Source: Aureibaculum luteum (GTDB taxonomy: Bacteria > Bacteroidota > Bacteroidia > Flavobacteriales > Flavobacteriaceae). From it: 64,000 nt of DNA. This document shows, piece by piece, positions 2,448 through 23,052 of the stretch (position 1 is the first letter of the stretch; each line of letters begins with the position of its first letter). Location of the stretch: contig NZ_QRGD01000003.1 of the NCBI RefSeq assembly GCF_003449015.1, forward strand, positions 434,001 to 498,000. Direction: 5' to 3'. The translations under genes and the position numbers were made by a program. The notes beneath the pieces are model-generated. The model saw only the letters and a program-made list of their open reading frames with translations. It ran no database searches and was not told the origin of the DNA.

Positions 2448-2533
2448 GCTCGAGTGGTGGAATTGGTAGACACGCTGGACTTAAAATCCAGTGGACAGTA
2501 ATGTCCGTATGGGTTCAAGTCCCATCTCGAGTA
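2448..2533 (+). tRNA. tRNA-Leu (TAA anticodon); target site of the integrative element
   Basis: The 86-base sequence has acceptor GCTCGAG paired with CTCGAGT, a long variable arm expected of leucine tRNAs, and an anticodon loop CTTAAAA giving TAA. Its 3' end from 2520 is part of a 15-bp direct repeat that recurs at 13390-13404, so the tRNA stays intact after integration because the element restores the 3' end. Confidence 0.95.
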
Positions 2534-2534
2534 C
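2520..2534 (+). repeat. attL core (tRNA-Leu 3' end)
   Basis: The 15-bp sequence TCCCATCTCGAGTAC is identical to 13390-13404. The flanking bases diverge on both sides, which defines the repeat exactly. It covers the 3' part of the T arm and acceptor stem of tRNA-Leu, the usual target of tyrosine integrases. Confidence 0.88.
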
Positions 2535-2541
2535 TTTTTAA

Positions 2542-2582
2542 AACCTCAACTATCTGTTTATTAGAAAGTTGAGGTTTTTTTA
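2542..2582 (+). terminator. Rho-independent terminator supplied by the element
   Basis: AACCTCAAC at 2542-2550 pairs with GTTGAGGTT at 2568-2576 across a 17-base loop and is followed by a T run. It sits just inside the element and would end the tRNA transcript in the integrated state. Confidence 0.75.
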
Positions 2583-2591
2583 TTTACGTTT

Positions 2592-2612
2592 TGCTAAACA
2601 TATGCTAAACAT
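2592..2612 (+). repeat. Left pair of putative integrase arm-binding sites
   Basis: TGCTAAACAT occurs at 2592-2601 and again at 2603-2612, an 11-bp period. The same pair, with the same period and orientation, lies near the right end at 13231-13251. Paired short direct repeats flanking the core sites are typical arm-type sites of tyrosine integrases; that role is inferred. Confidence 0.6.
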
Positions 2613-2781
2613 TTTAAAATAATTGGATTTAATAAGAAATTTTACTATTTTAAGAAACTTGGTTTTTCTTTTGTGATTTATTATTTAAAATATAACAATT
2701 ATTCTAGGAATTATTTTCTAGTTCATACGTACCTTGATGCTGTGAATCCATTATAAAATGGTTTTTTTCGTTAAACAAAAG

Positions 2782-2812
2782 TTAATATATGTTTAAAATA
2801 TAATTATATTTG
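2782..2812 (+). promoter_or_regulatory. Predicted promoter of the XRE operon
   Basis: TATATTTG at 2805-2812 matches the -7 element TAnnTTTG, and TTA at 2782-2784 stands 20 bases upstream in place of TTG. The first gene starts 57 bases downstream. Pattern match only. Confidence 0.4.
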
Positions 2813-2868
2813 AAAAATAATGTTGTCAAGTAACAAAATAAATATACATTTACAAAGTTAACTTATAA

Positions 2869-3390
2869 GTGAAGTTTCAAATAGAAATCATAAAAGATGA
2901 AAATTTAGATTTTACGAAAGTGAGATACTATACATTAAAATTTATTGATGAAGAGAAAACAGAATATCAAAAATTTATAGATGAATATAAAGAAGAATAT
3001 CTGTACTGTATTAATTTTCTAAAGCTTTGGATAGCCCAGATTGGTGAAAAATTTGGAGCTGATGATCAATATTTTAGGCCTGAAGACAATGCTTCTGCTC
3101 TACCACCACCGACAAAAACAATAAGAAAACTTGATTATTCACTAGACAAAAAAAATTTAAGCCTCAGGTTATATTGTATTGTCCTAAGTATGGATGTTGT
3201 AATATTAGTAAGTGGTGGAATTAAAGAAAGTGATGCTGCAAGAGATAGTCCGACTTGTTTTGAAAAATTAATGTTCGCTCAATCTATTTCATCACAATTT
3301 CATTTTTCAAAAAAACGTGGGGAATGGAATTTAAAAGGAAAAGATATTAAAACTGAAAAAAATTTTAGACTAACTTATCAAAAAAAATAA
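2869..3390 (+). CDS. Uncharacterised protein, possible toxin partner of the downstream XRE protein
   Basis: The 173-residue product is soluble and has no signal peptide. The start is a GTG. Residues around 95-125 read LRLYCIVLSMDVVILVSGGIK, followed by DSPTCFEKLMFAQ; the beta-strand pattern and the GGIK turn resemble toxin-like proteins that pair with XRE antitoxins in Bacteroidota. The XRE gene starts one base after its stop, so the two are almost certainly co-transcribed. No catalytic residues can be named and the toxin role is an inference. It is cargo of the tRNA-Leu element. Confidence 0.6.
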   Translation: MKFQIEIIKDENLDFTKVRYYTLKFIDEEKTEYQKFIDEYKEEYLYCINFLKLWIAQIGEKFGADDQYFRPEDNASALPPPTKTIRKLDYSLDKKNLSLRLYCIVLSMDVVILVSGGIKESDAARDSPTCFEKLMFAQSISSQFHFSKKRGEWNLKGKDIKTEKNFRLTYQKK

Positions 3391-3391
3391 T

Positions 3392-3940
3392 ATGGCTTCA
3401 AAAGCTTATTTGAAAATGTTGGAAGAAATTCCTAAGGAAATTCAGAATGATGTTTTTGGATCGATTGATATTGCTAATGAGATTTATACCGTTTTAAAAC
3501 AAGAGGGTATGACTCCTGCAGATTTAGCAAGATTAATGGACAAGTCAGAATCTGAAATAAGTAAATGGCTGACAGGATTACACAACTTCACATTCAAAAC
3601 TGTACGGAAAATAGGTGCTACTTTAGGAACTGATTTAATAGTTTCTAAATCAAGTAAAATCAAGTTTTACGAGGAGCTACTCCATGAGAAAGAAGAATTG
3701 ATATCGAGATTAAAAGGGCAATTGCTAAAATTGAATGAGATTAAAGTTAAAATTAATTACACCTATACAAAGTCAAAATATAGAAATATAAAAATTGGGG
3801 CTTGTGAAAGTAACCCCTCTGATTGTTGGAGTTTTAAAATTTATGATGAAGAGAGTAAATTAGAAAGAGATAATATCAAAATTGAACCTGTAATGTCTAG
3901 TAAATTACATACAAAAAGGCTAGAATTTATAGAATTATAG
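3392..3940 (+). CDS. XRE-family helix-turn-helix protein (antitoxin-like)
   Basis: The 182-residue protein has a helix-turn-helix domain at about residues 28-82 (IYTVLKQEGMTPADLARLM, then KSESEISKWLTGLHNFT), the usual lambda-repressor-like layout. A helical segment rich in Glu and Lys follows (about 90-115), and then a C-terminal region of unknown fold. HTH proteins of this kind serve as antitoxins and autorepressors. Its upstream neighbour ends one base before its ATG and its downstream neighbour begins directly after its stop, so it is the middle gene of a tight three-gene operon. Confidence 0.72.
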   Translation: MASKAYLKMLEEIPKEIQNDVFGSIDIANEIYTVLKQEGMTPADLARLMDKSESEISKWLTGLHNFTFKTVRKIGATLGTDLIVSKSSKIKFYEELLHEKEELISRLKGQLLKLNEIKVKINYTYTKSKYRNIKIGACESNPSDCWSFKIYDEESKLERDNIKIEPVMSSKLHTKRLEFIEL

Positions 3941-4396
3941 ATGATGTCAAAAACTAAAAGTAAAATTAAGAAACTCGAAGAAATCAGGGTAGAAATTATA
4001 AGTGTCCGCCCATATGGTTTTTACATGCATGATTTTGAAAGTAAGGACAATTTAACAAAGGATGGTGTTGAGTTTGGACTTGTTATGAAAATAGGACATA
4101 ACATTGAAAAACAGTTGGTGACAATTGATATAGAAAATGATTGTTATTATAAGGCTCAAAATTCAAAAAAGAAAGAAAATATTTTTGGTATTAAAAGCTC
4201 TACTTTATTTAGAGTGATTGATTTTGATAAACTTTTGAATGAAAAAGGAGAATTTTCGCCCCCAGAGGATTTTATTAGAAAACTATTAAATATTTGTATA
4301 GGTGGAATAAGAGGTATGATTTCTATAAAACTAATGAATACTCAAATGAATGATATAACATTTCCCTTAGTTGATTTAAGTAAATTTGAGAATTAA
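3941..4396 (+). CDS. Uncharacterised protein, third gene of the XRE operon
   Basis: The 151-residue soluble protein is of unknown function. The reading begins MMSKTKSKIKKLEEIRVEI directly after the stop of the XRE gene, with no gap, which argues for translational coupling. It is rich in beta-strand-like alternation (FGLVMKIGHNIEKQLVTIDIE). The KLEEIRVEI segment resembles KLNEIKVKI in the preceding protein, so part of the two proteins may share an origin; this is only an eye-level similarity. SecB-like chaperones accompany some toxin-antitoxin pairs, and this could be one, but I cannot show it. Confidence 0.55.
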   Translation: MMSKTKSKIKKLEEIRVEIISVRPYGFYMHDFESKDNLTKDGVEFGLVMKIGHNIEKQLVTIDIENDCYYKAQNSKKKENIFGIKSSTLFRVIDFDKLLNEKGEFSPPEDFIRKLLNICIGGIRGMISIKLMNTQMNDITFPLVDLSKFEN

Positions 4397-4528
4397 CAAC
4401 TAGTATATATTTATTTTAGATAATATTCCATTTCATAACATTTATAAGACACATTTGCAGTTGTCAAAAAACTGGTATTAAGGAAAAATCTTAATATAAT
4501 TTACTTTTAATAGTAAATATTCCTACGT

Positions 4529-5941
4529 TTATTTGTCATAATTAAACCTTCTTTTTCTAACACCATCATAATTTATTAAATTTAAAATACAATCTCTTAA
4601 AATATGATCAAGTTTGTAATAATTCTTTAGCCGTTCATTGTCATTTTCACCAAAATCTCCCTCATGCACTGCTATATTCCGTTCAATATTCACTAAACTT
4701 TTTACTTCTTCATTAAGTGGAATTTTTGCATAATTTAAAAAACTATAAAGTTTGTTTGTAGTTTCTCCCTTATGAAGTTTATTCAAGTTTCCTATTTTAG
4801 ATAAAAAAATACTCCATGCTGTTTTATTTTCTTTATCTATTTCATCTTTGAATTTTTTTATAGTCTCAATTATTTTTGCTTGTATCGTATTTTTAAAAAG
4901 TTCAGTAGAAATTAATTCACTTGGTGTATCGGTTGAATTATGTAAGTGATTTTTGCTAACTTTCTCCAATGCCGTAATTAATATAAAATATCGCTCTTCT
5001 ATGTTTATTTCATTGGTAGAATTTAATGATAATATTAATGACTTAAAATCAAGCTCCTGTCCTAAGTGATAAAATTTATCAAAGCCTTGAAAAAACATTT
5101 TTGAAAACACTTCATTTGTATCCCCTCGATAATCATTTATTGGTAAATAATCAGATGAACTTATCTTTGTAATTTCTTTTCTAGAGTATAAATTTACTAA
5201 CTGAGCATCTAGTGTTTTTTCCCCTAACCCTTTTTCAGAAATATACCATCCAGTATACTCTTTCTTTAAAATAACAATTGAGCCATTTATAAAAGATAAA
5301 AAACTTAAAAGCTCGTCCCTAAATTTTAAGTAATTCTTATATAATAGCCGGCAAGAACTTGACGGATCTCTGAAATCGATGAGTATATTTTTATTTCTTG
5401 TATTTCTAGTTAAGACCATATTGAAAAAGTTGCAAATAAAATCCTTATGATTTATGAAAAACCCTATAGATGTATGGTCAAATTTAAAATTACCGAATTT
5501 ATTTATTTGAGAACCATTTCTATATTCATTAATTGTTGTTGAGTCGCTGAATTCGATTTTCAAACCATCAATTTCAATTGCGTAAATAAAATTGTCTTCA
5601 ACATCTTCATAACTCTCTTGTTTTGGTCGCTCCTTTTTATTATCTTCTAATTTAATATTTCCATAGCATTTAAACTTCGCTTTTTGGTTATTTTCAGTAT
5701 AAGTTGAACAAAACAAACCTGAAATTTCAATATCATATCCCTTTTCAGTAATACCGACTAATGAATAATAATATGAGTTATCTGTTCTTTCGAAAAAAGT
5801 GGGATCTGACAAAAATGTTTCAACACTATAAACTCCTTTTTTTTCTGAGACTAAAGCAAATTGAATTACACATTCTTCACTATCATGCTTAATATGTCCG
5901 CTTAAGACGGTGTATTTAATCCTCATAAATAGTATTTTCAA
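4529..5941 (-). CDS. ApeA-like HEPN-domain protein, probable anti-phage effector
   Basis: The protein has 470 residues. The N-terminal half is beta-rich (about 1-200), like the N-terminal domain of ApeA proteins, and the C-terminal half is alpha-helical. Near the C-terminus it carries RNIAVHEG at residues 421-428, which matches the HEPN RNase motif R-x4-H (R421, H426). Known ApeA-type HEPN proteins act in abortive phage infection. It stands alone on the minus strand, convergent with the XRE operon, inside the integrative element, which is a typical place for defence cargo. The HEPN motif is visible; the ApeA relationship and the defence role are inferred. Confidence 0.6.
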   Translation of the reverse strand: MKILFMRIKYTVLSGHIKHDSEECVIQFALVSEKKGVYSVETFLSDPTFFERTDNSYYYSLVGITEKGYDIEISGLFCSTYTENNQKAKFKCYGNIKLEDNKKERPKQESYEDVEDNFIYAIEIDGLKIEFSDSTTINEYRNGSQINKFGNFKFDHTSIGFFINHKDFICNFFNMVLTRNTRNKNILIDFRDPSSSCRLLYKNYLKFRDELLSFLSFINGSIVILKKEYTGWYISEKGLGEKTLDAQLVNLYSRKEITKISSSDYLPINDYRGDTNEVFSKMFFQGFDKFYHLGQELDFKSLILSLNSTNEINIEERYFILITALEKVSKNHLHNSTDTPSELISTELFKNTIQAKIIETIKKFKDEIDKENKTAWSIFLSKIGNLNKLHKGETTNKLYSFLNYAKIPLNEEVKSLVNIERNIAVHEGDFGENDNERLKNYYKLDHILRDCILNLINYDGVRKRRFNYDK

Positions 5942-5978
5942 CCAATTACTAATTTAAAGTTAGACAAATCTGACCACT

Positions 5979-6224
5979 TCACATCACTTCACTCTCACTT
6001 CTGCCTTTACTTTTTCCAAATAAAATTAAAACAATAATCAATAATAGTAGTGTAATTCTTTACAATAGTTTTCTTTTACTAACAGTTGAAACTAAAATTG
6101 AAATTATATAGAGAATTATTCCAGCATTAATTATAGCCACCTAAATACTTAGAATAATTAATATATCTGTTAAAGTTACAATTGTAGTGAGATTTTTATT
6201 GCTAAAGTTTTTTAAACTGGATTT
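5979..6224 (-). pseudogene. Possible decayed small membrane protein gene with in-frame stops
   Basis: One minus-strand frame encodes hydrophobic stretches separated by charged turns, with two internal stops (TAG and TAA): LTDILIILSI, stop, VAIINAGIILYIISILVSTV then SKRKLL, stop, ITLLLLIIVLILFGKSKGR. No ATG start is visible. The pattern looks like a broken multi-spanning small membrane protein, but AT-rich DNA yields hydrophobic translations by chance, so this is weak. Otherwise the 374-base gap from 5942 to 6315 holds nothing I recognise. Confidence 0.3.
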
Positions 6225-6315
6225 TCAAAATTATAAAATTAAAACAAATCGATCAAACTACAACAATAATTATAATCAAGAGGAAAAACACCCATTGATA
6301 AAGGGGAATACCTTT

Positions 6316-6561
6316 TTATTTCATGAAGTAATTGTTAAGATTTTTTGAATATTTATTTAACCTATACCCCTCTTTAAAAGGTCTATTTTCAATTATCTTA
6401 TTTGATTGAGCATCATAAACCACCTCAACAAAAAACATATCTATTGCGTAAACATTAATTTTAAAACTGCCCTCGATAACAGTATCTAAAAAAGTGCCTA
6501 AATTCCAAATTGAATTAAACTGTTCTTGCTTATTCAATAATAAAAACTCGTAAAGGGTCAT
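6316..6561 (-). CDS. Small uncharacterised protein (81 aa)
   Basis: The 81-residue soluble protein begins MTLYEFLLLNKQEQF and contains a short beta-like segment (KINVYAIDMFFVEVVYD). I do not recognise a family. Its start codon lies 3 bases after the stop of the small membrane protein gene upstream, so the two are probably co-transcribed on the minus strand. Small proteins of this kind are common in flavobacterial integrative elements. Confidence 0.5.
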   Translation of the reverse strand: MTLYEFLLLNKQEQFNSIWNLGTFLDTVIEGSFKINVYAIDMFFVEVVYDAQSNKIIENRPFKEGYRLNKYSKNLNNYFMK

Positions 6562-6563
6562 TT

Positions 6564-6707
6564 TTAAATAATATTGAAGTATTGTAAAATATAGGCAATC
6601 ACTACAAAGGCAATACCATAAATCAAAGTATATTTACCAAAATCATCAAAACTGTTTGTGTTTTGGGGTTCTTTACAACTTGCTTTTGGTGCTGATGTAC
6701 CCTCCAT
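6564..6707 (-). CDS. Small single-span membrane protein (47 aa)
   Basis: An ATG at 6705-6707 opens a 47-codon frame that ends 3 bases before the next gene. The product starts MEGTSAPKASCKEP, has a hydrophilic N-terminal half and one hydrophobic segment near the C-terminus (YTLIYGIAFVVIAYILQYF). The codon pattern and tight spacing to the 81-residue gene support a real gene. Function is unknown. Confidence 0.55.
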   Translation of the reverse strand: MEGTSAPKASCKEPQNTNSFDDFGKYTLIYGIAFVVIAYILQYFNII

Positions 6708-6748
6708 AGTTTAATATTAGACTACTAATTTAATAATTTTATCCTTAT

Positions 6749-7000
6749 TCAAACTTTTGATAATTTTATCATTTCATTAAGTAGTTCAATTGGCACCAAT
6801 CTTTTTGTAAGATTTGACAATTTAGTTTTCTTTAATTCAATAATTTTATAAATAACAGGACTGTTAAAATTTAGGCTTTCAAGTTCCAAAATTTTACTTT
6901 CAATACTTACAATGTTCATAAACCTACGAAATTGGTCTTTACTCAAATTTGGTACTCCATTTCGCTTGACAATGTTACTAAAGTATTCTGTATAATTCAT
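6749..7000 (-). CDS. Small uncharacterised helical protein (83 aa)
   Basis: The 83-residue protein begins MNYTEYFSNIVKRNG and is predicted by eye to be mostly helical (IESKILELESLNF, then IIELKKTKLSNLTKRL). It has no signal peptide or membrane segment. It lies 41 bases upstream of the small membrane protein gene in the same direction. Family and function are unknown. Confidence 0.45.
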   Translation of the reverse strand: MNYTEYFSNIVKRNGVPNLSKDQFRRFMNIVSIESKILELESLNFNSPVIYKIIELKKTKLSNLTKRLVPIELLNEMIKLSKV

Positions 7001-7122
7001 TTAACAAAACTACTTACAGAATGAATAAGTGATTGATTCAATTTGTAGCAAAACTGTAATTTAAAATTATTCTAAATTATTGTTGTAAATAATAAGATAT
7101 TTTTAGACTTATTCAATTAATA

Positions 7123-7644
7123 CTACCAATCTTCATTATCTTCTTTTACAGTAAATAAATCCTCAAAAAAATTATTATACATTGATAATGCTTTTTTGGT
7201 GGACTTATTTATCTTAATATTATCACTTCTAATCACAAACCTTGATAAATCATCATAATCATATTTATCTGTTAATTGTAAACCTACCATTCGATTTGTC
7301 TTAACTCTAATTAGGTTAATTGTAACTCTATACTTACTTTCCTTAAATTCAATTTTACCTTTTAAATCTCCTCCCAACGATGTATACATTGGAAATGTAC
7401 CTACTCTATGTCCGTAATGTTTTAAATCTTCACGATTGAAATCTTTATTAAAATCAAGGTAATCACTACCTACATTTTCAAAAGTTAACTTAAGGCTTCT
7501 TTTTAAATCTTGTAATTGTATAGAATCTTCAAAAATTCTTTGCCAAACAATACGCCCCTTATCTACTTTAAAGTTGCTAAATGAATTGACTTGAGATTGT
7601 ATAACAAAAGGAATTAATAACAATAGTAGTGTGACGTTTCTCAT
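7123..7644 (-). CDS. Uncharacterised exported protein
   Basis: The 173-residue protein starts with a clear signal peptide (MRNVTLLLLLIPFVIQSQ), which places it in the periplasm or on the surface. The mature part is beta-rich with conserved-looking segments (GRIVWQRIFED and GGDLKGKIEFKESKYRVTI). The layout recalls small exported DUF4468-type proteins of Bacteroidota, but this is a loose resemblance. It is part of the element's minus-strand run of small envelope proteins. Confidence 0.55.
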   Translation of the reverse strand: MRNVTLLLLLIPFVIQSQVNSFSNFKVDKGRIVWQRIFEDSIQLQDLKRSLKLTFENVGSDYLDFNKDFNREDLKHYGHRVGTFPMYTSLGGDLKGKIEFKESKYRVTINLIRVKTNRMVGLQLTDKYDYDDLSRFVIRSDNIKINKSTKKALSMYNNFFEDLFTVKEDNEDW

Positions 7645-7684
7645 TGTATAAAAAATTATCCAGTTTTTATTTATTTAAAATCTA

Positions 7685-7894
7685 CTACCTACCTCGCAAT
7701 AACACGCCAATAATTGATAAGATTAAAATAATAGCGATAACCCATACAATAGTAGATAGGTTGTTTCTTATTTTTTCTAATTTATCAATCTTAATTTGTT
7801 GCGAATACAATAATTCCAGTTTAAATTGCTCATCTGTTATACCTGTACGCTCTGCATTAAAAGTGGATTCTTTTTTTGATATTTTTCTTGGCAT
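7685..7894 (-). CDS. Small C-terminally anchored membrane protein (69 aa)
   Basis: The 69-residue protein has a charged N-terminal part with a short coiled-coil-like segment (QQIKIDKLEKIRNNL) and a C-terminal membrane span (TIVWVIAIILILSIIGVLL). It reads MPRKISKKESTFNAERTG at the start. The opposite-strand frame over the same bases looks like its shadow. It could be a tail-anchored accessory protein; the function is unknown. Confidence 0.5.
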   Translation of the reverse strand: MPRKISKKESTFNAERTGITDEQFKLELLYSQQIKIDKLEKIRNNLSTIVWVIAIILILSIIGVLLRGR

Positions 7895-8049
7895 GATTAA
7901 TATTTAAACCACTAAATTAATAATTAGTTGAAGTATTAAGTATAATATTATTATATTTTTATCTAATTTTTAAAATCTCAAGAGAACTAAATGAAACATA
8001 GCAAGCCTTCTTCAATAAATATAAACAGTATTAATATAAAATATAAATT

Positions 8050-8565
8050 ATGATAGATTTTATTTTGATTTCAAAAGTATTGATATTAATGGGTCTTTAT
8101 TTCATATTAAGTAAAATTTATAAAAACTTTGATTTTAATTCTTCTGCACCAATTGATTTTTTAAATTTTAAAAAACCAATTCAAATATTAGTATTAATAG
8201 TTGCTTGTATATCCGCTTTTTCTATATTTATGTCATTTGTAGTTTCAGTCTTTTTAGTTATTGCTCCAGGATTTTATAATTATTTAGAAACAAGACCATA
8301 TTGGGATCAAATAATAATACTATTTGGATTTATTGCTTTTTATTTCGTTTCTAAAATGAGAATGGATGAAATAAGTGAAAAGAAGCAGAAACAAAAAGAA
8401 CTAATTACAAGTCAAAAATCAAGAATAAATCAACTTGAAAATGACCTCAGAACAACAATAAACACCTTAGAGGAAAAAACACTCCCGAAACTAACGGAAA
8501 ATGAACGTGCAAGAATAATAGCCTTTAGAAATACAATGGAACGAAGGAAGGATAACAAGGAATAA
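8050..8565 (+). CDS. Membrane protein with C-terminal coiled coil
   Basis: The 171-residue protein has three hydrophobic segments (about residues 4-24, 45-75 and 85-103). A cytoplasmic-looking coiled coil follows (about 105-145, SQKSRINQLENDLRTTINTL) and then a basic tail. It is the only plus-strand gene in the middle of the element. No family is recognised; a role tied to the cell envelope is all that can be inferred. Confidence 0.55.
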   Translation: MIDFILISKVLILMGLYFILSKIYKNFDFNSSAPIDFLNFKKPIQILVLIVACISAFSIFMSFVVSVFLVIAPGFYNYLETRPYWDQIIILFGFIAFYFVSKMRMDEISEKKQKQKELITSQKSRINQLENDLRTTINTLEEKTLPKLTENERARIIAFRNTMERRKDNKE

Positions 8566-9069
8566 AGCTTTAAACCACAATCCTTAAAGAGATTTATTAA
8601 ATACAAAGTTTAATTATTTACTAGTGCCTAGTATGGTTAATCCTCATACATTTTTAAAAGGGGTATAAGGAATAAATAAACCCATACCCCTATTAACTTT
8701 AGTTAAACTTTTAAATTTTTTTGACTTTTTTATCAATGTGACCTTAGTACCCTACAATCTAATTTAATAGACAAATTATGAATCAATTTCATCCATAATA
8801 ACATTTTTACTATAATATTTGATATGCAACATAAATACCACAAATCCTTTTATTTAATTGGCTCTATCTGAATTTATTGACTTTTTTCATCATGTAATAT
8901 GTTCTCTGAATTGTTACTATTTATAACCTTCAGGCTATAAAAATAAATGAGATAATTTCATTTAACCTTAACAATATCTGCTTTTACAGGTGTTGACAGC
9001 GTAATAAAAAAATATTTTATTCAAGATTAATATTAAACAGTTACTTTTGATGTGCGATTCTAAGCCTAT
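8566..9069. other. Long intergenic gap in the element
   Basis: This 504-base stretch between a plus-strand gene and the convergent Rep-like gene has no convincing ORF. It contains one imperfect hairpin, GGGGTAT at 8660-8666 with ATACCCC at 8684-8690, followed by a weak T/A tract. That could terminate the upstream gene or be a replication-related structure. I see nothing else in it. Confidence 0.4.
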
Positions 9070-10023
9070 TTAACCATCTAACAATGCTTCTTGCATTTCT
9101 TTGATGTTCTGCATAGTATCTTGGTTTTTAGAGTTGTTAATTAATGCTAAATTGTACTTTACGACTTTTCTTTGGTGGGTTGCTTTCGTATTCTTACTTA
9201 ACTTACTTTTTATATGTCTCATGATGCTTTCAAAGTCGCCATTATATATATCGTTTAAATAAAAAATATGTGCAAAGTTTTTTTCTTGTGGGTTTGTCAT
9301 ATTAGTAGTGTTTAAGATTGACTGTATTTTGGTTTGATTATCTATGATTTTAGTAAGTGTATTGTAATTTAAGTTTTTAAAATTAAGGACATCAACAAGG
9401 TTTGTACTTTTTAAATATTTTCTAATTGTTGCCATTTTTGATAATCTAGTTTCTATTCTTAATACATCATCAAATACACCTAAAAGGGTAGGGTAATGTT
9501 TATAGAAACTCTTATGCTTTAGCATTTCATACCCCTTAAGATAGCCAGTTAACCTTAATGGCGTTCGTTGTATGTTTTCATTAAATGTAATACCACTAGG
9601 GTACTTTGCTTTTGTAAAGTTAGGTGCTATTAAATTATTTAACGATTGGATATAGTTTTTAGGTGAACTTAATTTTAAATCATTTTTTACATCAACCGAC
9701 TTTAAAGTACTATATTTAATAAAATCAGGCAACAAAACAATACCACTTTTATTAATATTCGTGACTACTTGTTCAATTGTATCAATGCAAATTCCTTTTG
9801 GATAATCTAAACCTAAAATTTTACTACTTAAATTAATTCTTACCGTATCACTATCGTAATTCACTATTATTTTATTAATGCCAGTTATGCTACTTTCTAA
9901 AATATAATTATTTTTTATTACACCCTTTGAGGTTTTAACTTTAGAATGAGTAAATTTTTTAAAATTAATATCCTGTATTAAGTCAGTCGGTGTTGTTAAT
10001 GATATGGAATCTAATCTTGTCAA
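9070..10023 (-). CDS. Replication initiation-like protein (rolling-circle, filamentous-phage type)
   Basis: The protein has 317 residues. The middle part holds LTGYLKGYEMLKHKSFY and, about 15 residues later, DDVLRIETRLSK. This resembles the Y-x-K-x-x-E and L-R-I-E-x-R-L blocks of Phage_CRI-type Rep proteins, which nick DNA and start rolling-circle replication in filamentous phages and related elements. A gene of this size beside an HTH gene and integrase is common in small flavobacterial integrative elements. No Zot-type packaging ATPase is present, so it is not evidence for a complete filamentous phage. The Rep call rests on motif resemblance. Confidence 0.5.
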   Translation of the reverse strand: MTRLDSISLTTPTDLIQDINFKKFTHSKVKTSKGVIKNNYILESSITGINKIIVNYDSDTVRINLSSKILGLDYPKGICIDTIEQVVTNINKSGIVLLPDFIKYSTLKSVDVKNDLKLSSPKNYIQSLNNLIAPNFTKAKYPSGITFNENIQRTPLRLTGYLKGYEMLKHKSFYKHYPTLLGVFDDVLRIETRLSKMATIRKYLKSTNLVDVLNFKNLNYNTLTKIIDNQTKIQSILNTTNMTNPQEKNFAHIFYLNDIYNGDFESIMRHIKSKLSKNTKATHQRKVVKYNLALINNSKNQDTMQNIKEMQEALLDG

Positions 10024-10100
10024 TCTACTTATGAGGGTATTAATTTTTAATACTTATTGCAGTATAATTATATAAAGGCATTTTTGTATATTTGCGATAA

Positions 10101-10122
10101 GGGTATGCGTTGCCGTATTCCC
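10101..10122. other. Hairpin upstream of rep (candidate replication origin or control element)
   Basis: GGGTATGCG (10101-10109), loop TTGC, then CGTATTCCC (10114-10122) forms a 9-bp stem with one mismatch and one wobble. It lies about 80 bases upstream of the Rep-like start. Rolling-circle origins are often hairpins near rep; the role here is speculative. Confidence 0.3.
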
Positions 10123-10140
10123 TAACATTTGAACAAATTA

Positions 10141-10168
10141 AAAGGGGCTTTGAACACCCCTTTTTTTT
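10141..10168. terminator. Bidirectional terminator hairpin
   Basis: AAAGGGG (10141-10147) pairs with CCCCTTT (10157-10163), followed by eight T's in the plus direction and a weaker T tract on the minus strand. It would terminate the minus-strand gene ending at 10176. Confidence 0.6.
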
Positions 10169-10175
10169 ATTTGGA

Positions 10176-10562
10176 CTAATTGTTAATGAATGGCAAAACC
10201 TTGCTTAAATCGGTTGTATAGTTGTTCTGAAAGTAATAAACCAATAGTGTACTAGTATCATCTGAAAACTTAAATACTACTAAATCTCTTTTACGATTAA
10301 TATCGCCTTTGTAGAGGTTCGTTTTAGATGTTATAAATAATCCTGTTAGGCATTTACTCCATTTTTTGCCCTGTCTTATCTTTATCCAGTATTCAGGCAT
10401 TGATAAGGCACAATTTTGGTTTTTACTAATGTTAAGGAAATTTGAAAGTAAAGTTCTGCCGTTAAGCATCTCCAATAACTCGTAATGTTTCGTGGTTTTA
10501 TATTTACCCTCGTTTATTTCTTTGAACAAGTGGGTAATTGGTTGAGGTATTTGCGTTGCCAT
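10176..10562 (-). CDS. Uncharacterised element protein (128 aa)
   Basis: The start chosen is the ATG at 10560-10562 (MATQIPQPITHLFKEINEGK) rather than an upstream in-frame start that would overlap the HTH gene; from 10562 the two genes are separated by 4 bases. The protein is soluble, with aromatic and basic segments (WIKIRQGKKWSKCLTGLF). Its position between the excisionase-like gene and rep suggests a role in replication or DNA binding, but no family is recognised. Confidence 0.5.
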   Translation of the reverse strand: MATQIPQPITHLFKEINEGKYKTTKHYELLEMLNGRTLLSNFLNISKNQNCALSMPEYWIKIRQGKKWSKCLTGLFITSKTNLYKGDINRKRDLVVFKFSDDTSTLLVYYFQNNYTTDLSKVLPFINN

Positions 10563-10566
10563 TGTC

Positions 10567-10848
10567 TTATTTTTTAAGTTGAACAATAGCATTTTCCACC
10601 TCATCACGGATATACAGAACACGTCCGCCAATAGCGTATTTAATTAATATGCCTTTGACGGTTAAATTGTGTACCGTGGATAGGTCGCAATGTAACATTT
10701 CATCCGCTACATATTGACGGGTAACGTACTTTGTAGGTTCTTTGGGTTGAAATTCTTTTTTAAGGTTGTCTAATTGACATTTAACGGCTTCATTGATTAG
10801 ATTAACTAATGCCGAAGGCGATGTTGAAATAAACTGTACTGTTTCCAT
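10567..10848 (-). CDS. Excisionase-like helix-turn-helix protein
   Basis: The 93-residue protein has a C-terminal winged-helix segment of the excisionase/MerR type: YVTRQYVADEMLHCDLSTVH, then NLTVKGILIKYAIGGRVLYI and a final helix. Proteins of this type bend att DNA and steer integrases toward excision, or regulate element genes. It is encoded in the integrase region of the element. A cluster of CTGCAC/GTGCAG half-sites lies 50 bases upstream of its start, which may be its operator. The fold assignment is good; the exact role is inferred. Confidence 0.65.
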   Translation of the reverse strand: METVQFISTSPSALVNLINEAVKCQLDNLKKEFQPKEPTKYVTRQYVADEMLHCDLSTVHNLTVKGILIKYAIGGRVLYIRDEVENAIVQLKK

Positions 10849-10897
10849 TTTCGAAATATTTTTGATTAATACTTCGACAAGATTAATGCAAGTTGCC

Positions 10898-10935
10898 CTG
10901 CACCAAACTACTGCACTGGTGCAGATTTAGTGCAG
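10898..10935. repeat. Cluster of inverted CTGCAC/GTGCAG half-sites
   Basis: CTGCAC occurs at 10898 and 10911, and its complement GTGCAG at 10919 and 10930. The inner pair forms CTGCAC-TG-GTGCAG. The cluster overlaps the stop of the 297-residue gene and lies upstream of the HTH gene. It could be an operator, an excisionase site or an iteron-like array. Confidence 0.5.
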
Positions 10936-11820
10936 ATTATTTAATTTAGTATAAATGTTCTGAAAATCAGTAGTTGTTTCAATATTCCGTTCATTGCAGT
11001 AGACGGCAATTTTATTCATCATAGTTTTTGAATTGTAGAAATTTTTTTGCCCAGCATCTTGCAATGTATCGTTTACGTATTGTCGTACCGCTTTTTCAGT
11101 TTTTAAAATTTCTTTTTTGATGTGTATAGATAATTTTGAAATATCCGAAAAACTTTCGCCTTTAAATTTATAGTCGTTATTAAATCCTTTTTTTTCTATG
11201 GTAATAAACCCCTGTGCAAACAATGCTCCTATTTCGCAGTAAAATGGATAAACTATAGTTTCTTTTTCTTTAAGATTATTATAATTAAAATTTTCTCCAT
11301 CATTTTCAGGCGATAGTCGGTCAAACATTTCATCTAACCTTTTATCTGCTTCCTTTCTTTTTGTTTTATTAATTTTTATTAATTCTTTTCTTTTTTCCTT
11401 TGCCCAATCTTTAATAATCTTTTTTTGCTCAAAATAGTAATCAATGATAAATTCTTCTTCTATAACTTGATGTTTTTTATTACTTATTTTATTAAAAATT
11501 TCAAAATCATTATGATTATTTATATCTAATATTGGATGTTCTTTTTCTAATTTTTTTATAGATTTATTTAGTGCCTTGATGCTTTTTTTTAAATGTGTGG
11601 TTTCATTTCTTGCATATACTAAATGATCTTTAATAAATTTAATTAATTCATCCTTTAACCAATCCTCCAATTTTATAAAACAAGAGTTGAGTTTTTCTTC
11701 CAAATCTGAAATAGATACATTATCAATCCCTCCTCCATCTCTATATTGTTTAGGTTTTAATATTTCATCAAGTTCGTAAGGGGTTCTTACATGTCTAGTG
11801 AAATAATCTAAATTTTCCAT
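10927..11820 (-). CDS. Uncharacterised helical protein next to the integrase
   Basis: The 297-residue protein is rich in Lys and Glu and long helices (KKSIKALNKSIKKLEKEH; DWAKEKRKELIKINKTKR), consistent with coiled coil. No signal peptide or membrane segment is seen. It lies between the integrase and the HTH gene in the same direction. Several Bacteroidota elements carry a regulatory or accessory gene here, but the sequence does not let me assign one. Confidence 0.5.
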   Translation of the reverse strand: MENLDYFTRHVRTPYELDEILKPKQYRDGGGIDNVSISDLEEKLNSCFIKLEDWLKDELIKFIKDHLVYARNETTHLKKSIKALNKSIKKLEKEHPILDINNHNDFEIFNKISNKKHQVIEEEFIIDYYFEQKKIIKDWAKEKRKELIKINKTKRKEADKRLDEMFDRLSPENDGENFNYNNLKEKETIVYPFYCEIGALFAQGFITIEKKGFNNDYKFKGESFSDISKLSIHIKKEILKTEKAVRQYVNDTLQDAGQKNFYNSKTMMNKIAVYCNERNIETTTDFQNIYTKLNNLH

Positions 11821-11856
11821 TTGAACATTTATTTACACGTTGCTTATAGATTGTTA

Positions 11857-13185
11857 TTATTGATTTGATACTTTTAATACCTTTAAATTTGTTTTTTCAC
11901 TTAATGAAACTTTACTCTTTTTCTTTTGCTCCATTAATTCTGCATATTCTAACATTAACTTAGCGTTTTCATCTTTATCCTCTTTTACTCCGATATAAGA
12001 TAAAAACAATGCTTCTTTAGAATGAGCCGTGCAATACATCAAAATTGGTGTTGGGATATGTAAATAATAATTGGTTGCAAAGGATCTTCTACAAACGTGT
12101 GAAGTTATTAATTTATACTTTGGGTAAGTGCCTTTGATTTTTCTTTTTGTGTCAGAATCTAACAAACTGCCTTTAGTTAGTTTATTTAATCCTATATCTT
12201 TGCAAAGCATTTTTAAATAATTGTTAAACTTTTGGATAGATATTTTATACGGTAAACCACTTTCTTTTATTGCTTTGACTTCTGACCTCACTGCGATTGA
12301 AATTTCTTTACCTGTTTTTTGTTGCGTTAAGTCGATATATTCAATACCATTTCTAACATTAAAATTATCTTCTGTAATATTAAGTAGGTCGCCCCCCCTT
12401 TGCCCAATCTCACAGCCAAACAATAACCACTTTCTAACATTAATTAATGATTCATTTTTTAATTCAAAATTTTCAATTAACCTCAACTCCTCAAATGATA
12501 AAGTTACTATTACCCTTTCGGCTTTCGGTTCTGTAAAAATAGGAATATCAAATGCATAGGAATGCATCTCAACGCCTTTAGGTTTAGCATCTTTACAAAT
12601 TGCCTTTAGGTTATCAATAATTTTACCTGCGTAACCTTTACTATAATCATTTTCTTTTAATAACCAATTTCTAAAAGCATCTGAAAAATTTGCATCTAGA
12701 TTTTTAAACTTTAATTTCTTACCGGTAAAGGCTTCATATTTTTCAATCGTACCCTTAAAAGTTTTATAACCCTTAACCCTGTTTTGAGATAATCCGATTT
12801 TACCGTTTGATAGTACTTTAGTATCTGCAGTATCAATAACATTCTGAATATAATCAGTAACCAAATTACTTATTTCAGTCGTTTTAACGCGTTTGAAATA
12901 AATATTTATACTTAACTCTAACCATTCCGACAAATCCTCTTTGGTAGTTTCTTTTGAATTGTCAAGGTTATTAATGACATAAGTCTTTAAGGCTCTTAAC
13001 TCTTTGGTTAAATTTTTTAAGTGTGGTGTATTTTGTTTTGGTAGTCCGTTTTTAGTATTCCAATCCTTGAAACTAATTTCTTTACCAATTTTCTTAAATA
13101 TTACTTTACCCCTACCCGCTGATAGTACTAAATAAATCGGTGTGTTTTCTGACTTACTACGAAGTTTATAATTGATTGTTGCCAT
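11857..13185 (-). CDS. Tyrosine recombinase (integrase) of the element
   Basis: The integrase is of the Bacteroidota type: an N-terminal arm-binding domain (MATINYKLRSKSENTPIYLV), a SAM-like core-binding domain, and a C-terminal catalytic domain. Counting from the ATG at 13185, the catalytic residues visible are R263 (GQRGGDLLNI), K290 (QQKTGKEIS), H363 and R366 (SHVCRRSF), H388 (TAHSKEA) and Y397 (LSYIGV). The ATG at 13209 would lie upstream of the likely promoter element at 13207-13214, so 13185 was chosen. It is adjacent to attR and should catalyse insertion into tRNA-Leu. Confidence 0.93.
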   Translation of the reverse strand: MATINYKLRSKSENTPIYLVLSAGRGKVIFKKIGKEISFKDWNTKNGLPKQNTPHLKNLTKELRALKTYVINNLDNSKETTKEDLSEWLELSINIYFKRVKTTEISNLVTDYIQNVIDTADTKVLSNGKIGLSQNRVKGYKTFKGTIEKYEAFTGKKLKFKNLDANFSDAFRNWLLKENDYSKGYAGKIIDNLKAICKDAKPKGVEMHSYAFDIPIFTEPKAERVIVTLSFEELRLIENFELKNESLINVRKWLLFGCEIGQRGGDLLNITEDNFNVRNGIEYIDLTQQKTGKEISIAVRSEVKAIKESGLPYKISIQKFNNYLKMLCKDIGLNKLTKGSLLDSDTKRKIKGTYPKYKLITSHVCRRSFATNYYLHIPTPILMYCTAHSKEALFLSYIGVKEDKDENAKLMLEYAELMEQKKKSKVSLSEKTNLKVLKVSNQ

Positions 13186-13230
13186 ATTTTGAACGTTTGA
13201 ACATACCAAAGATAATGAATATTATTAATT

Positions 13231-13251
13231 TGCTAAACATTTGCTAAACAT
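13231..13251 (+). repeat. Right pair of putative integrase arm-binding sites
   Basis: TGCTAAACAT at 13231-13240 and 13242-13251, with the same 11-bp period and orientation as the left pair at 2592-2612. It lies just upstream of the integrase start, so integrase binding here could also repress its own gene. Confidence 0.6.
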
Positions 13252-13389
13252 ATTTTACTCTTCATTCAATTTATATCAATTTGATTAAATTTTGCTTATA
13301 GACTATAAACTATCGTAAACATTGATTTAACAAAGCCTTATACCAATTTTGTTGAGGTTTTCAAATAGCATCAATTGAGTATATCCTAC

Positions 13390-13404
13390 TCCCATCTCGA
13401 GTAC
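13390..13404 (+). repeat. attR core
   Basis: TCCCATCTCGAGTAC repeats exactly the 3' end of tRNA-Leu at 2520-2534 and marks the right end of the element. The sequence immediately to the right is the old downstream flank of the tRNA. Confidence 0.88.
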
Positions 13405-13408
13405 AAAA

Positions 13409-13437
13409 AAACCTAGACTTTCGTCTAGGTTTTTTTA
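13409..13437 (+). terminator. Ancestral tRNA-Leu terminator, now displaced
   Basis: AACCTAGAC (13410-13418), loop TTTC, GTCTAGGTT (13423-13431), then a T run. Because it directly follows attR, it is most likely the original terminator of the tRNA unit before integration. Its 18-base core is the exact reverse complement of the core of the hairpin at 28851-28872. Confidence 0.75.
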
Positions 13438-13579
13438 TTTAGATTATCCTCACGTACTATATAGGTACAATCATAACTCTTCAAGTCCCATTCTCTTTAA
13501 TTTTAAATCATCTGAATCAAAATTATTTTCACAAATTAAAACGGCTCTAAAGTGCAACGTTACCATAGCATTTGAAAAT

Positions 13580-13772: not shown

Positions 13773-16700
13773 ATGAAAAAACTAATTGAAAATCCCCCTA
13801 TTAATTTTTACAAAGCGACATTTGTAAAAAAGTCAATTTTTTTCTTCTTTTTACTCCTTTTTTCCATTACAACAGGTTTTTCTCAAAACCAATCTGTTTC
13901 AGGAAAAATAACAGATGGAGTTACTGGAGAACCATTAATTGGAGTTAGCATTATTCTCAAAGGCTCTATCAGAGGTGTATCTTCTGACTTAGACGGAAAG
14001 TATAATTTTGACAACATTTCCACAAATGACATTTTAGTCTTTTCCTATGTTGGCTATGGAGAGAAAGAAGTAAAAATTGGTAATGAAAAAATTGTAAACA
14101 TTACTTTAAATGCTCTAACAGACCAACTAGACGAAGTAATTATTGTAGGTTATGGTGTTAAAAAGAAAATAAACGTAACAGGATCAGTGATTTCTGTAAA
14201 AAGCGAAGACATTGACAAGTCAAGCTTACAGGATCCAATATCTGTTCTACAAGGAAGAGCTGCAGGGGTTCAAGTAATCTCAAATTCAGGAGCTCCAGGT
14301 GGTGGAATGTCAATTAAAATAAGAGGTAATTCCTCATTAAATTCTGGTAACTCCCCATTATATGTAGTTGATGGTGTTCCCATTGAATCGAACATGCTTT
14401 CTTCATTAAATGGTACAGAAAACTTCGGACTTAACCCTTTAGCAGATATAAACCCTGGTGATATTGAGTCTATTGAAATATTAAAAGACGCAGCGTCTAC
14501 CGCTATATACGGCTCACGTGCTGCAAATGGAGTAATCTTAATTACTACCAAAAGAGGTTCTTCAGGTAAAGCACAAATAGATGTTAATATCAACACTGGA
14601 GTTAGTGAAATATCTAGAACTCTAAGTGTATTGAATGCAACACAATATAGACAGGTGATTCTTGATGCATACAATAATATGGAAAACCCTACTACACCCA
14701 ACGGAATTATTTTGGATTCTTTAAATCCGAAAAACAATGGTGATGTTGATTGGCAGAAAGAATTATTAAGAACAGCACCTCAGTACAAAGTTAATCTTGC
14801 AGTACGAGGTGGATCTGATGATATTAAATATGCTTGGAGTACTTCTTTTCTAAATCAAGATGGTGTTATTTTAAATTCGAATTACAAAAGAGTAACTTCT
14901 AGATTAAATGTTGATTATAAAGTTTCTGAAAAATTAACTTTTGGACAAAGCATTTCATATACACATGGTTTAAACAATAGAATAAATGCGGGCGGTACTA
15001 ATAACCTAAGTGTAATTCGCGAATTATTAGTAAGACCACCAATTTTTGCTATGTATTTACCTGACGGTTCTTATAACGGTTATCAATTTGGTAGGAGAAA
15101 CCCTGTAGGATTGGCAGAATTAGCTACACATACGAACCAGAGTAATAGAATTATTGGAAGTCAATATTTTGAATACGAAATAGTAGATGGTTTAAAATTG
15201 AGGAGTAACCTTAATTTAGATAACATCTCAATGAAAGAAGATGAGTTTATCCCTTCTACACTAGATTATAGAGCTGGCTACAATAGTGGTTCTGTTCGTG
15301 CTATCAATAATTTAACTTGGGGTAATGAAACATATTTGAGTTTCAATAAAACGGTAAAGGAAGACCATAATATATCTGCACTTGCAGGTATGAGTTTTCA
15401 GAAATGGAAATACGAAAGAGTTGGTTTAGACGGTATGTTCTTTGCCAGTGATAACATCACCACGTTGAATGGTGCGGGTACAATTTCTAATCAAGACGTA
15501 AATATTGTAACTGAACACTCCATGTTATCTTATTTTGGAAGACTTTCTTATGACTACAAAGGCAAATACTTATTTGAAGCTAATTTAAGAACTGATGGAT
15601 CTTCACGATTTGGTAAGGATAAGCGTTTCGGCTATTTTCCTTCTGCTTCTTTTGGATGGCGTTTCTCGGATGAGCCATTGTTCGAAAATTTAGATATTGT
15701 AAATGATGCTAAATTAAGATTCAGCGTTGGTCAGACAGGTAATGAGGCTATTGGTAATTACACTTCTCAAGGTGAATTTATAGTAGGTTCAAATTATTTA
15801 GATAATTCAGGTGCTTCACCATCAGTAATGCCGAATTCAGGATTATCATGGGAAACAACAACACAATACAATGCAGGTTTAGACATTGCCCTTTTGCAAA
15901 ATAGAATCACGCTTAACGCTGATGTTTACTTGAAGATTACTGATGATTTACTTTATAATGTGCCTATACCAAGAACAACTGGTTTTGCCTATGTAACTCA
16001 AAACATTGGTAGTATTGAAAATAAAGGAATTGAATTGTCTATAACTTCTAGAAACCTTGTTGGTGATTTTAAATGGGACACCAACTTCAACATCAGTTCT
16101 AATAAAAATCAAATAACAGATTTACCAGATGACCTATTAACTAATGGTTTTATACAAAATGGTAATTTTCACATCTTAAAAGAAGGTTTACCAATTGGAA
16201 CATTTTATGGTTATAAGTTTAACGGTGTTTATTCTAGAGATGAAGACAACGTTAATGGTGTTACCAATGGAGCACTTGGTCAAATCTACAAAGGAGGTGA
16301 CCCTATCTGGGATGACGTTAATGGTGACAATATAATAAATGAAGATGACCAACAAATTATTGGAGATGCTACACCAGATTTCTTTGGTGGGATAACGAAT
16401 AACTTTTCTTACAAAGGTTTAAGCTTAGGAGTCTTTTTCCAATTTTCTTACGGTAATGACATTTACAGTGAAATTAATCACCAAAGAAATTCAGTTGTTA
16501 GATACAACAACTTATCAACTGACGCTTTAGACCGTTGGAGAAACCAAGGAGATGTTACTGATTTCCCTAAACCTGTATTAGACGACCCTTTACGATCAGA
16601 CAGTAGAGTTCAAAGTCGTTGGGTTGAAGATGGTTCTTATATAAAACTTAAAAATGTTAATCTAAGTTATAACATACCTAATAATGTAGTAACAAAATTA

Positions 16701-16871
16701 GGCTTAAGAAAACTGGAAGTATATGCTTCAGCTCTTAACTTAATTACTTGGACACGTTATACGGGATTTGACCCTGATGTTAATTCGTATAGCGGATTAA
16801 GAGAAGGTATTGATGAAGGATCATATCCTCAGAGTCGTACTATAATGTTAGGTTTGAATATTGGATTTTAA
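13773..16871 (+). CDS. SusC-type TonB-dependent outer-membrane transporter
   Basis: The 1,032-residue protein has a signal peptide (KSIFFFFLLLFSITTGFSQ), a carboxypeptidase-regulatory-like domain (about 40-120, GKITDGVTGEPLIGVSI), and a plug domain (VIVGYGVKKKINVTGSV, then SVLQGRAAGVQV and GNSSLNSGNSPLYVVDG). A long beta-barrel ends in the expected aromatic residue (LGLNIGF). It imports oligosaccharides across the outer membrane together with the SusD protein encoded 12 bases downstream. The promoter carries a LacI-type operator. Neighbouring hexosaminidases and NagA/NagB genes point to an N-acetylhexosamine-containing glycan as cargo. Confidence 0.93.
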   Translation: MKKLIENPPINFYKATFVKKSIFFFFLLLFSITTGFSQNQSVSGKITDGVTGEPLIGVSIILKGSIRGVSSDLDGKYNFDNISTNDILVFSYVGYGEKEVKIGNEKIVNITLNALTDQLDEVIIVGYGVKKKINVTGSVISVKSEDIDKSSLQDPISVLQGRAAGVQVISNSGAPGGGMSIKIRGNSSLNSGNSPLYVVDGVPIESNMLSSLNGTENFGLNPLADINPGDIESIEILKDAASTAIYGSRAANGVILITTKRGSSGKAQIDVNINTGVSEISRTLSVLNATQYRQVILDAYNNMENPTTPNGIILDSLNPKNNGDVDWQKELLRTAPQYKVNLAVRGGSDDIKYAWSTSFLNQDGVILNSNYKRVTSRLNVDYKVSEKLTFGQSISYTHGLNNRINAGGTNNLSVIRELLVRPPIFAMYLPDGSYNGYQFGRRNPVGLAELATHTNQSNRIIGSQYFEYEIVDGLKLRSNLNLDNISMKEDEFIPSTLDYRAGYNSGSVRAINNLTWGNETYLSFNKTVKEDHNISALAGMSFQKWKYERVGLDGMFFASDNITTLNGAGTISNQDVNIVTEHSMLSYFGRLSYDYKGKYLFEANLRTDGSSRFGKDKRFGYFPSASFGWRFSDEPLFENLDIVNDAKLRFSVGQTGNEAIGNYTSQGEFIVGSNYLDNSGASPSVMPNSGLSWETTTQYNAGLDIALLQNRITLNADVYLKITDDLLYNVPIPRTTGFAYVTQNIGSIENKGIELSITSRNLVGDFKWDTNFNISSNKNQITDLPDDLLTNGFIQNGNFHILKEGLPIGTFYGYKFNGVYSRDEDNVNGVTNGALGQIYKGGDPIWDDVNGDNIINEDDQQIIGDATPDFFGGITNNFSYKGLSLGVFFQFSYGNDIYSEINHQRNSVVRYNNLSTDALDRWRNQGDVTDFPKPVLDDPLRSDSRVQSRWVEDGSYIKLKNVNLSYNIPNNVVTKLGLRKLEVYASALNLITWTRYTGFDPDVNSYSGLREGIDEGSYPQSRTIMLGLNIGF

Positions 16872-16883
16872 AAATAAAAAAAC

Positions 16884-18251: not shown

Positions 18252-18280
18252 AATTATTTTAAAATTTTAAATCCAAAAAA

Positions 18281-19729: not shown

Positions 19730-19740
19730 GGAAATATAAT

Positions 19741-20508
19741 ATGAGCATACCCATGAAATCAACCCTTACTTATCTTAGTTTTTTATTACTATTTCCATTG
19801 TTTATGATGAACTCTTGCAGTGCGTCTAATGGTGATAAAGATGAAGAAATACCTGTTGTAACAACGAGAATCATAACATTTTCAGGTTATGAATGGGTAG
19901 TAAGAACTACCAAGGATGATAAACAAGGTCCTGGACCTAATTTTTTTTCAGACTCTGAAGAAAATGTATGGGTAGATAATGATGGAAAACTCCACCTCAA
20001 AGTTGTACAAAGAGATGGTATATGGTATTGTGCGGGTATAACATTACGCCAAACGCAAGGACATAAAAAATATGTTTTCTATCTATCAAGTAGAGTTGAT
20101 CAATTGGATGAAAATGTTGTTGCCGGATTGTTCACTTATAAGAATGACGAAGAAGAAATTGATATCGAATTTTCTAGATGGTCAGATACTGAGAATCAGA
20201 ACTCACAATTTGCAATTCAACCGTCTTATGTAGCAGGAAATAAAACACGCTATGATATGAATTTAGATAGTAATTTAACTACACATTTCTTTGATTGGCA
20301 AGCTGATAAAATTGACTTTGGTAGTTATGAAGGGCATACGTTAGAACCGGAAACCAATGCTATTATTAACACATGGACGTATACTGGCGAAGCTATACCT
20401 CCACTTAATGACGAGCGTTTAAAAATAAACCTATGGTTGTTTAGAGGTAATGGACCAACGGATAACAAAGCCGCTGAAATGATTATTGACCGTATTGAAA
20501 TATTATAA
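19741..20508 (+). CDS. GH16-like lipoprotein
   Basis: The 255-residue protein has a lipoprotein signal peptide (LLLFPLFMMNSCSAS) and a concanavalin-like jelly-roll domain. It contains EIDIEF within DEEEIDIEFSRW, which matches the GH16 catalytic motif E-x-D-x-E. Family members cleave beta-1,3/1,4 glucans or galactans, and some are non-catalytic binders. It is encoded directly after the FAS1 protein and before a NagB-like gene, so it is likely on the surface and part of the glycan machinery. The exact substrate cannot be read from sequence. Confidence 0.68.
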   Translation: MSIPMKSTLTYLSFLLLFPLFMMNSCSASNGDKDEEIPVVTTRIITFSGYEWVVRTTKDDKQGPGPNFFSDSEENVWVDNDGKLHLKVVQRDGIWYCAGITLRQTQGHKKYVFYLSSRVDQLDENVVAGLFTYKNDEEEIDIEFSRWSDTENQNSQFAIQPSYVAGNKTRYDMNLDSNLTTHFFDWQADKIDFGSYEGHTLEPETNAIINTWTYTGEAIPPLNDERLKINLWLFRGNGPTDNKAAEMIIDRIEIL

Positions 20509-20542
20509 AGTATAAAAATAGTTGAGTTAGTAAATAAGGATT

Positions 20543-20588
20543 GAAACTCTTGTTAATTATATATTTTTTAATTAACAGAGTTTCTTTT
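20543..20588 (+). terminator. Hairpin between GH16 and nagB-like genes (terminator or attenuator)
   Basis: GAAACTCTTGTTAATTA (20543-20559) pairs with TAATTAACAGAGTTTC (20569-20584) apart from one bulged T, and is followed by TTTT (20585-20588). It sits inside the gene run and could set lower expression of the downstream cytosolic genes or end the surface operon. Confidence 0.55.
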
Positions 20589-20609
20589 AACCGAAACACT
20601 TAAAAGTAA

Positions 20610-23039: not shown

Positions 23040-23052
23040 AAGCTATGCGTCA

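Follow-up and report, generated by a model that had tools for sequence, protein, structure and literature searches.

We found that positions 2520-13404 of a 64,000-nucleotide stretch of the Aureibaculum luteum genome (contig NZ_QRGD01000003.1, positions 434,001 to 498,000 of the forward strand; hereafter the window, in whose numbering all coordinates are given) are, as judged from the sequence, a real site-specific integrative element of the tyrosine-integrase type, inserted in the 3' end of a tRNA-Leu gene. Comparison with related genomes establishes the insertion, both of its ends, the empty sites and a layout common to its relatives. The element probably belongs to an already known kind of integrative element, that of the rolling-circle replication (RCR) type, in a variant form. 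We consider it probable that it is intact, that its integrase would drive excision, and that a protein with the predicted fold of plasmid replication initiators (Rep) would replicate the excised circle by the rolling-circle mode and perhaps assist its transfer; its cargo includes candidate defence genes.

The target gene, tRNA-Leu(TAA), is located at 2448-2534 on the forward strand. Since the tRNA predicted by ARAGORN ends at 2534, the sequence TCCCATCTCGAGTAC at 2520-2534 is its exact 3' end, the last 15 bp of the gene, and constitutes the left attachment core. The exact second copy claimed in a first-pass annotation of this DNA is present at 13390-13404 (+) as the right core, and no further copy was found elsewhere in the window even with up to two mismatches allowed (shuffled sequences gave a mean of 0.02 matches). 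From the core-to-core spacing, the predicted excised circle is therefore 10,870 bp. The tyrosine integrase reported next to the repeat is encoded at 11857-13209 on the reverse strand, 180 bp inside the right core; its 450 amino acids (aa) match the Pfam family Phage_int_SAM_5 (33.6 bits versus a cut-off of 22.3), Phage_integrase just under the cut-off (24.8 bits versus 27.1) and an integrase group of the PHROGs (1e-15). The G+C content inside the element is 26.9%, versus 32.1% in the remainder of the window, and the lowest value among 159 equal-sized windows to the right of the element is 30.2%. Inside each end there is a pair of direct repeats of TGCTAAACA with a spacing of 11 bp, starting at 2592 and 2603 on the left (2592-2611, +) and at 13231 and 13242 on the right (13231-13250, +), which are presumed to be the arm sites bound by the integrase. 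The original tRNA terminator of the host now stands at 13405-13436, beyond the right core, and an inverted repeat followed by a T-run just inside the left end (2540-2578, +) may act as a substitute; the latter was read by eye and is absent from the output of the terminator scan, which had a loop limit of 8. Promoter-like matches were no more frequent than expected from shuffled sequences.

Empty sites, which the first-pass annotation had proposed to look for in related genomes, were found in three genomes of the same genus. The tRNA region was searched in 60 related genomes, including that of A. luteum itself, and matched in 59. A query made by joining the two flanks (2200-2534 and 13405-13560) was then compared with 14 loci from 12 genomes (G208 and G212 contributed two each). 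It gave a single alignment across the junction in G205 (373 bp, 97.1%), G207 (402 bp, 94.8%) and G213 (401 bp, 90.5%). When the flanks are used separately in these three genomes, the alignment of the left one ends at most 20 bp from the junction and that of the right one begins only at the core; in G213, CCTAGACTTTCGTCTAGG, the stem that follows the right core in the window, is found directly after the tRNA itself with one difference. Agreement extends 38 to 66 bp past the junction and the chromosome farther right is not conserved, so the evidence of empty sites is limited to the junction and does not extend to long synteny. For the remaining nine genomes, the joined alignment stops at the core or no more than 10 bp beyond it, so their right flank differs and they neither support nor contradict an empty site. 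From these alignments, empty sites exist in related genomes, and together with the exact core they fix both ends to the base, as had been asserted.

Relatives of the integrase were detected in 10 of the 17 genomes of the genus, that of A. luteum included. Four other genomes of the same family (G317, G202, G050 and G203) contain elements of one layout: the 3' end of an RNA gene, cargo, a gene in the position of Rep (the Rep slot), a gene of the HTH_17 type, a variable gene, the integrase, and a repeat of the RNA-gene end. Some of them have an extra gene of 128 to 151 aa, or another small gene, between the Rep slot and the HTH_17 gene. The insertion is in tRNA-Leu in G317 (repeat of 21 bp, element of 9.60 kb), in tRNA-Asp in G202 (16 bp, then 25 more past one mismatch; 10.8 kb), in tRNA-Arg in G050 (24 bp; 6.95 kb) and in tmRNA in G203 (17 bp; 12.2 kb). 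Integrase homologues linked to similar repeats, which the first-pass annotation had expected of such an element, are thus found at RNA genes in all four. G317 belongs to a different genus, yet its element shares the target tRNA and the backbone with that of A. luteum and has similar cargo, with identities of 46% (integrase), 65% (HTH_17 gene), 58% (151-aa gene) and 52% (Rep), and the same geometry of paired repeats with a different motif, AGTCA, as read by eye. The same tRNA carries a related left end in G208 and G209, where the contigs end inside the element. In G037, a Rep fragment and an 81-aa gene lie beside tRNA-Leu without a repeat, as a remnant.

The gene at 9070-10023 on the reverse strand codes for a 317-aa protein that is most likely a divergent rolling-circle nicking enzyme (initiator or relaxase) of the Rep_trans/MOBT fold, to judge from a structural model and conserved residues. 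By sequence it is outside PF02486 (Rep_trans): it had no convincing match in Pfam, PHROG, NCBIfam or PADLOC, and no phage, plasmid or PDB sequence matched it. An AlphaFold2 model built from four sequences had as its best PDB matches in Foldseek the plasmid initiators RepDE of Staphylococcus aureus and RepSTK1 of Geobacillus (probability 1.00, E-values of 4e-4 to 3e-3), with 10-12% sequence identity over the alignments. Five homologues were aligned, the most distant of which is 22% identical and comes from a different family of the phylum; only 18 columns are invariant, and D5, D115, Y161, K163, E166 and E191 belong to them. These agree in residue type and order with D72, D177, Y252, K254, E257 and E280 of the relaxase RelSt3, which are reported as required or important for nicking (PMC6499999). 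The pattern of three acidic metal ligands and a catalytic Tyr with K at +2 and E at +5 is therefore present by order and spacing, and Y161 falls on a predicted strand (157-162) in the model, as the Tyr of RelSt3 is described on a beta strand in the same source. The motif Y-x-K-xx-E arose in 87 of 500,000 random placements of the 18 invariant residues.

Several observations weigh against this assignment. PF02486 at E<=1 matches neither the 317-aa protein nor its homologue in G317, nor anything in its own genome. The model is of medium confidence (predicted local distance difference test, pLDDT, 62.8), its template modelling scores to the PDB matches are 0.31-0.41, and one unrelated protein (0.75) appears among those matches. 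The correspondence with RelSt3 was assigned by residue type, order and spacing, not by superposition. Moreover, the 302-aa protein in the Rep slot of G202 could not be linked to the family of the 317-aa protein (hhalign probability 0.6%); Y-x-K and R-x-E are visible in it by eye, and it had a single weak phage match (7e-3).

Relatives of this protein are scarce. In overlapping genome samples that each include A. luteum, they were found in 2 of 199 and 5 of 397 genomes of the family (with two of these five incomplete or disrupted), 3 of 395 of the order (one weak), 2 of 17 of the genus (its own and G203) and 2 of 395 of the phylum. Those of G287 (two internal stops) and G676 (E-value of 9.8e-4) were not used. 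G877 represents a different family of the phylum; near its tRNA-Ser (L087, 3633-19438), a distant Rep homologue is accompanied by type I restriction genes, an HTH gene and an integrase. The tRNA-end repeat was not found in about 56 kb downstream, so this genome was used as a source of a Rep homologue only.

The cargo includes three adjacent genes (2869-4396, +) of 173, 182 (helix-turn-helix, HTH) and 151 aa that match PADLOC models of PDC-M64, with best E-values of 4.3e-35, 2e-25 and 6.1e-10, the first slightly better to M64B than to M64A. From these matches they are a candidate anti-phage defence module; PADLOC itself lists PDC-M64 as a candidate only, and no paper was found under this name in the open-access literature. 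In G317 the first two of three cargo genes match PDC-M64 and the third has no match at E<=0.01. The cargo of G202 contains SIR2, PDC-S11 and type IIG-like genes, that of G050 one gene with a partial DrmA match, and the one gene of G203 that was scanned had no match. Next in the A. luteum element is a 470-aa protein (4529-5941, -) with a RNIAVH motif (Rx4-6H, HEPN type) near the C terminus. It had a Pfam match to NCH2 under the cut-off (5e-4), no relative in PDB, plasmids, IMG/VR or 298 other genomes, and a single-sequence fold with a pLDDT of 32.8; the motif hints at a possible HEPN nuclease.

We propose that the integrase would recombine the 15-bp core that lies in the 3' end of the tRNA gene while bound to the paired TGCTAAACA arm sites, probably assisted by the HTH_17 protein, and that excision would yield the 10,870-bp circle. 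The 317-aa protein would nick an origin on this circle, perhaps inside 10087-10165, and the circle would then replicate like a small rolling-circle plasmid. The same nick could send single strands into the conjugation pore of a helper. The MOBT proteins of Tn916 and ICEBs1 are described as both relaxases and replication initiators (PMC5704250, PMC6499999), and mobilisation by a helper is therefore plausible. The circle would reintegrate in an RNA gene, and the element could be retained through its candidate defence cargo (PDC-M64 and perhaps the 470-aa protein), which would repay the host.

Upstream of the Rep gene, a conserved block between genes (10087-10165, -), composed of a terminator-like hairpin followed by TTGTTCAAATGT and GGCAACGCATACCC, is the candidate origin, where nicking would perhaps occur. 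RNAalifold on this block supported pairing for the first, terminator-like hairpin only. Counting against the proposal, the second hairpin was not significant in single-strand folding in the window, G317 or G208 (z of -0.5 to -0.7); in G203 it was modest (z of -2.2). A hairpin origin was accordingly set aside, its sequence being conserved but its second hairpin supported by neither RNAalifold nor single-strand folding. ATTTGAACA, considered as a repeated regulator site, showed no enrichment.

The 14 open reading frames (ORFs) of the element were scanned against Pfam and PHROGs, and ten of them against NCBIfam. These scans found no capsid, assembly or packaging gene (PHROGs) and no canonical relaxase (MobP, Q, V or C) or type IV secretion system (T4SS) gene, which bears out the earlier statement that the gene content matches no known complete phage or conjugative element. 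The lack of a T4SS of its own would also suit a true integrative and mobilizable element (IME) whose 317-aa protein is mainly a MOBT-type relaxase, with mobilisation left to a conjugative element resident in the host. MOBT proteins resemble Rep_trans proteins, and streptococci are described as commonly carrying IMEs that encode them (PMC5704250). We regard this as possible but rather unlikely. Like plasmid initiators, the 317-aa protein has no N-terminal HTH domain, the mark of relaxases of integrative and conjugative elements such as RelSt3 (PMC6499999), and no origin of transfer was identified in the element. The genome of A. luteum has one VirD4-family match only, on another contig and modest although above the cut-off (28.5 bits), and G317, G203, G202 and G050 have none.

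It is unlikely that the 317-aa protein lacks a nicking function altogether and that the element is an ordinary genomic island capable of excision and integration only. Such a reading would fit a protein that no sequence model recognises and whose structural model is modest, but the six residues of the RelSt3 type are all invariant in five divergent homologues and the top structural matches come from one family. Less probable still is a tie of the element to a filamentous (inovirus-like) phage, either as its satellite or as a decayed provirus, in which case Rep would make single-stranded circles for a helper inovirus to package and export. The sizes of the elements (7-12 kb) and the small hydrophobic proteins at 7685-8565 are compatible with it, and an Inoviridae protein (2.7e-6) is among the matches of the Rep model in BFVD, where three unnamed viral proteins rank higher (best, 1.4e-10). 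Because of the Inoviridae match, a filamentous prophage was considered as the main interpretation; it was set aside because no structural gene was found among the 14 ORFs scanned. Against a satellite, the PHROG scan of these ORFs yielded no capsid or assembly gene, and no Rep relative was detected in two scans of IMG/VR or among 50,697 phage records. Zot matches were found in seven of eight genomes, none of them on the contig of the window (that on contig 48 of G000 is just above the cut-off), and the Zot model also matches archaeal controls. That the element is a fixed remnant, no longer mobile, is highly improbable: it is rare at its site (the two genus genomes with the Rep family have it at tRNA-Leu only in A. 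luteum), but its core and arm repeats are exact, the integrase and Rep frames are open, and near relatives have empty sites.

As for the rest of the backbone, the 93-aa HTH_17 protein (10567-10848, -), which scores under the Pfam cut-off and is kept in the four other elements (39-86%), is presumed to be an excisionase or recombination directionality factor. The variable slot at 10927-11820 (-) codes for a coiled-coil-like protein of 297 aa; in G202 it is occupied by an RteC-family protein, and a relationship between the two was rejected (hhalign probability 0.07%). A 151-aa ORF (10176-10631, -; 128 aa from an inner ATG) is kept in G317 (58%) and G050 (36%), an 81-aa gene (6316-6561, -) in the G317 and G050 elements and the G037 remnant, and an 83-aa gene (6749-7000, -) in G317 (49%) and on contig 126 of G208 (39%). 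Three small genes at 7123-8565, of 173 aa (-), 69 aa (-) and 171 aa (+), had no convincing family in Pfam or PHROGs; two of their products have hydrophobic stretches covering most of a membrane span, and the 173-aa one has a signal-like N terminus.

Beyond the attachment site, a 12-bp partial copy of the tRNA-Leu end is located at 13480-13491. G317 has two 11-bp copies, 124 and 238 bp beyond its repeat (L071, 9222-9346), and G209 a full 15-bp copy 162 bp beyond the tRNA (L052, near 10152); these could possibly be scars of earlier insertions. A susC/susD and amino-sugar utilisation cluster (13773-28706) lies between the right end of the element and 28950. In G119 (L050), tRNA-Leu almost directly adjoins the counterpart of the sequence that starts at 28950, so the intervening region varies as well. 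Contig 12 of G002 (L055, L056) carries a second full copy of tRNA-Leu about 34 kb from the first, 97% identical to that of the window over 91 bp.

Among known systems, the streptococcal IMEs with Rep_trans/MobT proteins (e.g., IME_SsuBM407_tRNAleu) resemble the element, as described in PMC5704250, in the combination of a tyrosine integrase, a site at an RNA gene or gene end, one RCR-type protein (here a putative one) and no T4SS. They have a recognisable MobT/PF02486 protein and belong to Firmicutes, whereas the 317-aa protein falls outside PF02486 by sequence and its host is a flavobacterium. The canonical Bacteroides IMEs NBU1, NBU2, Tn4555 and Tn4399 are likewise non-conjugative elements of Bacteroidetes with an integrase of the same broad kind, but they are reported to encode MobP relaxases (PMC5704250), of which none was found in the element; according to the same 2017 survey, relaxases of canonical families are what the few known Bacteroidetes IMEs encode. 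Among described islands, the closest that we met is the 10K genomic island of Riemerella anatipestifer, a related bacterium (PMC6764341): it is also 10 kb long, with a tyrosine integrase and a location downstream of a tRNA (Arg), and its excision to a circle was demonstrated by PCR. It has a 53-bp repeat and 12 ORFs, mostly hypothetical, and is set beside the element by description only. RepDE and RepSTK1 would share the fold predicted for the 317-aa protein, and RelSt3 has its residue set D, D, Y-x-K-xx-E, E (PMC6499999); unlike these proteins, the 317-aa protein is found on an integrating element, and its identity over the Foldseek alignments is low, as given above. In searches of the open-access literature around this topic, consulted mostly at the level of titles and abstracts, we recognised no description of an element of this kind in Bacteroidetes.

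Tentatively, these elements may represent an undescribed Bacteroidota family of defence-carrying hitchers, the mobility of which would depend only on an integrase with a small HTH protein and on a divergent nicking enzyme of the Rep_trans fold; this enzyme would both replicate the excised circle and pass single strands either to a filamentous phage or to a conjugation pore foreign to the element. A small island in which no relaxase or capsid gene can be recognised is commonly labelled "transfer unknown". Here, the exact ends, the empty sites, the several target RNA genes and the single candidate nicking enzyme make the movement of such candidate defence cargo among flavobacteria directly testable. 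If our proposal is true, the Rep_trans/MOBT chemistry would extend to integrative elements of Bacteroidota, in a form that escapes the sequence models now in use.

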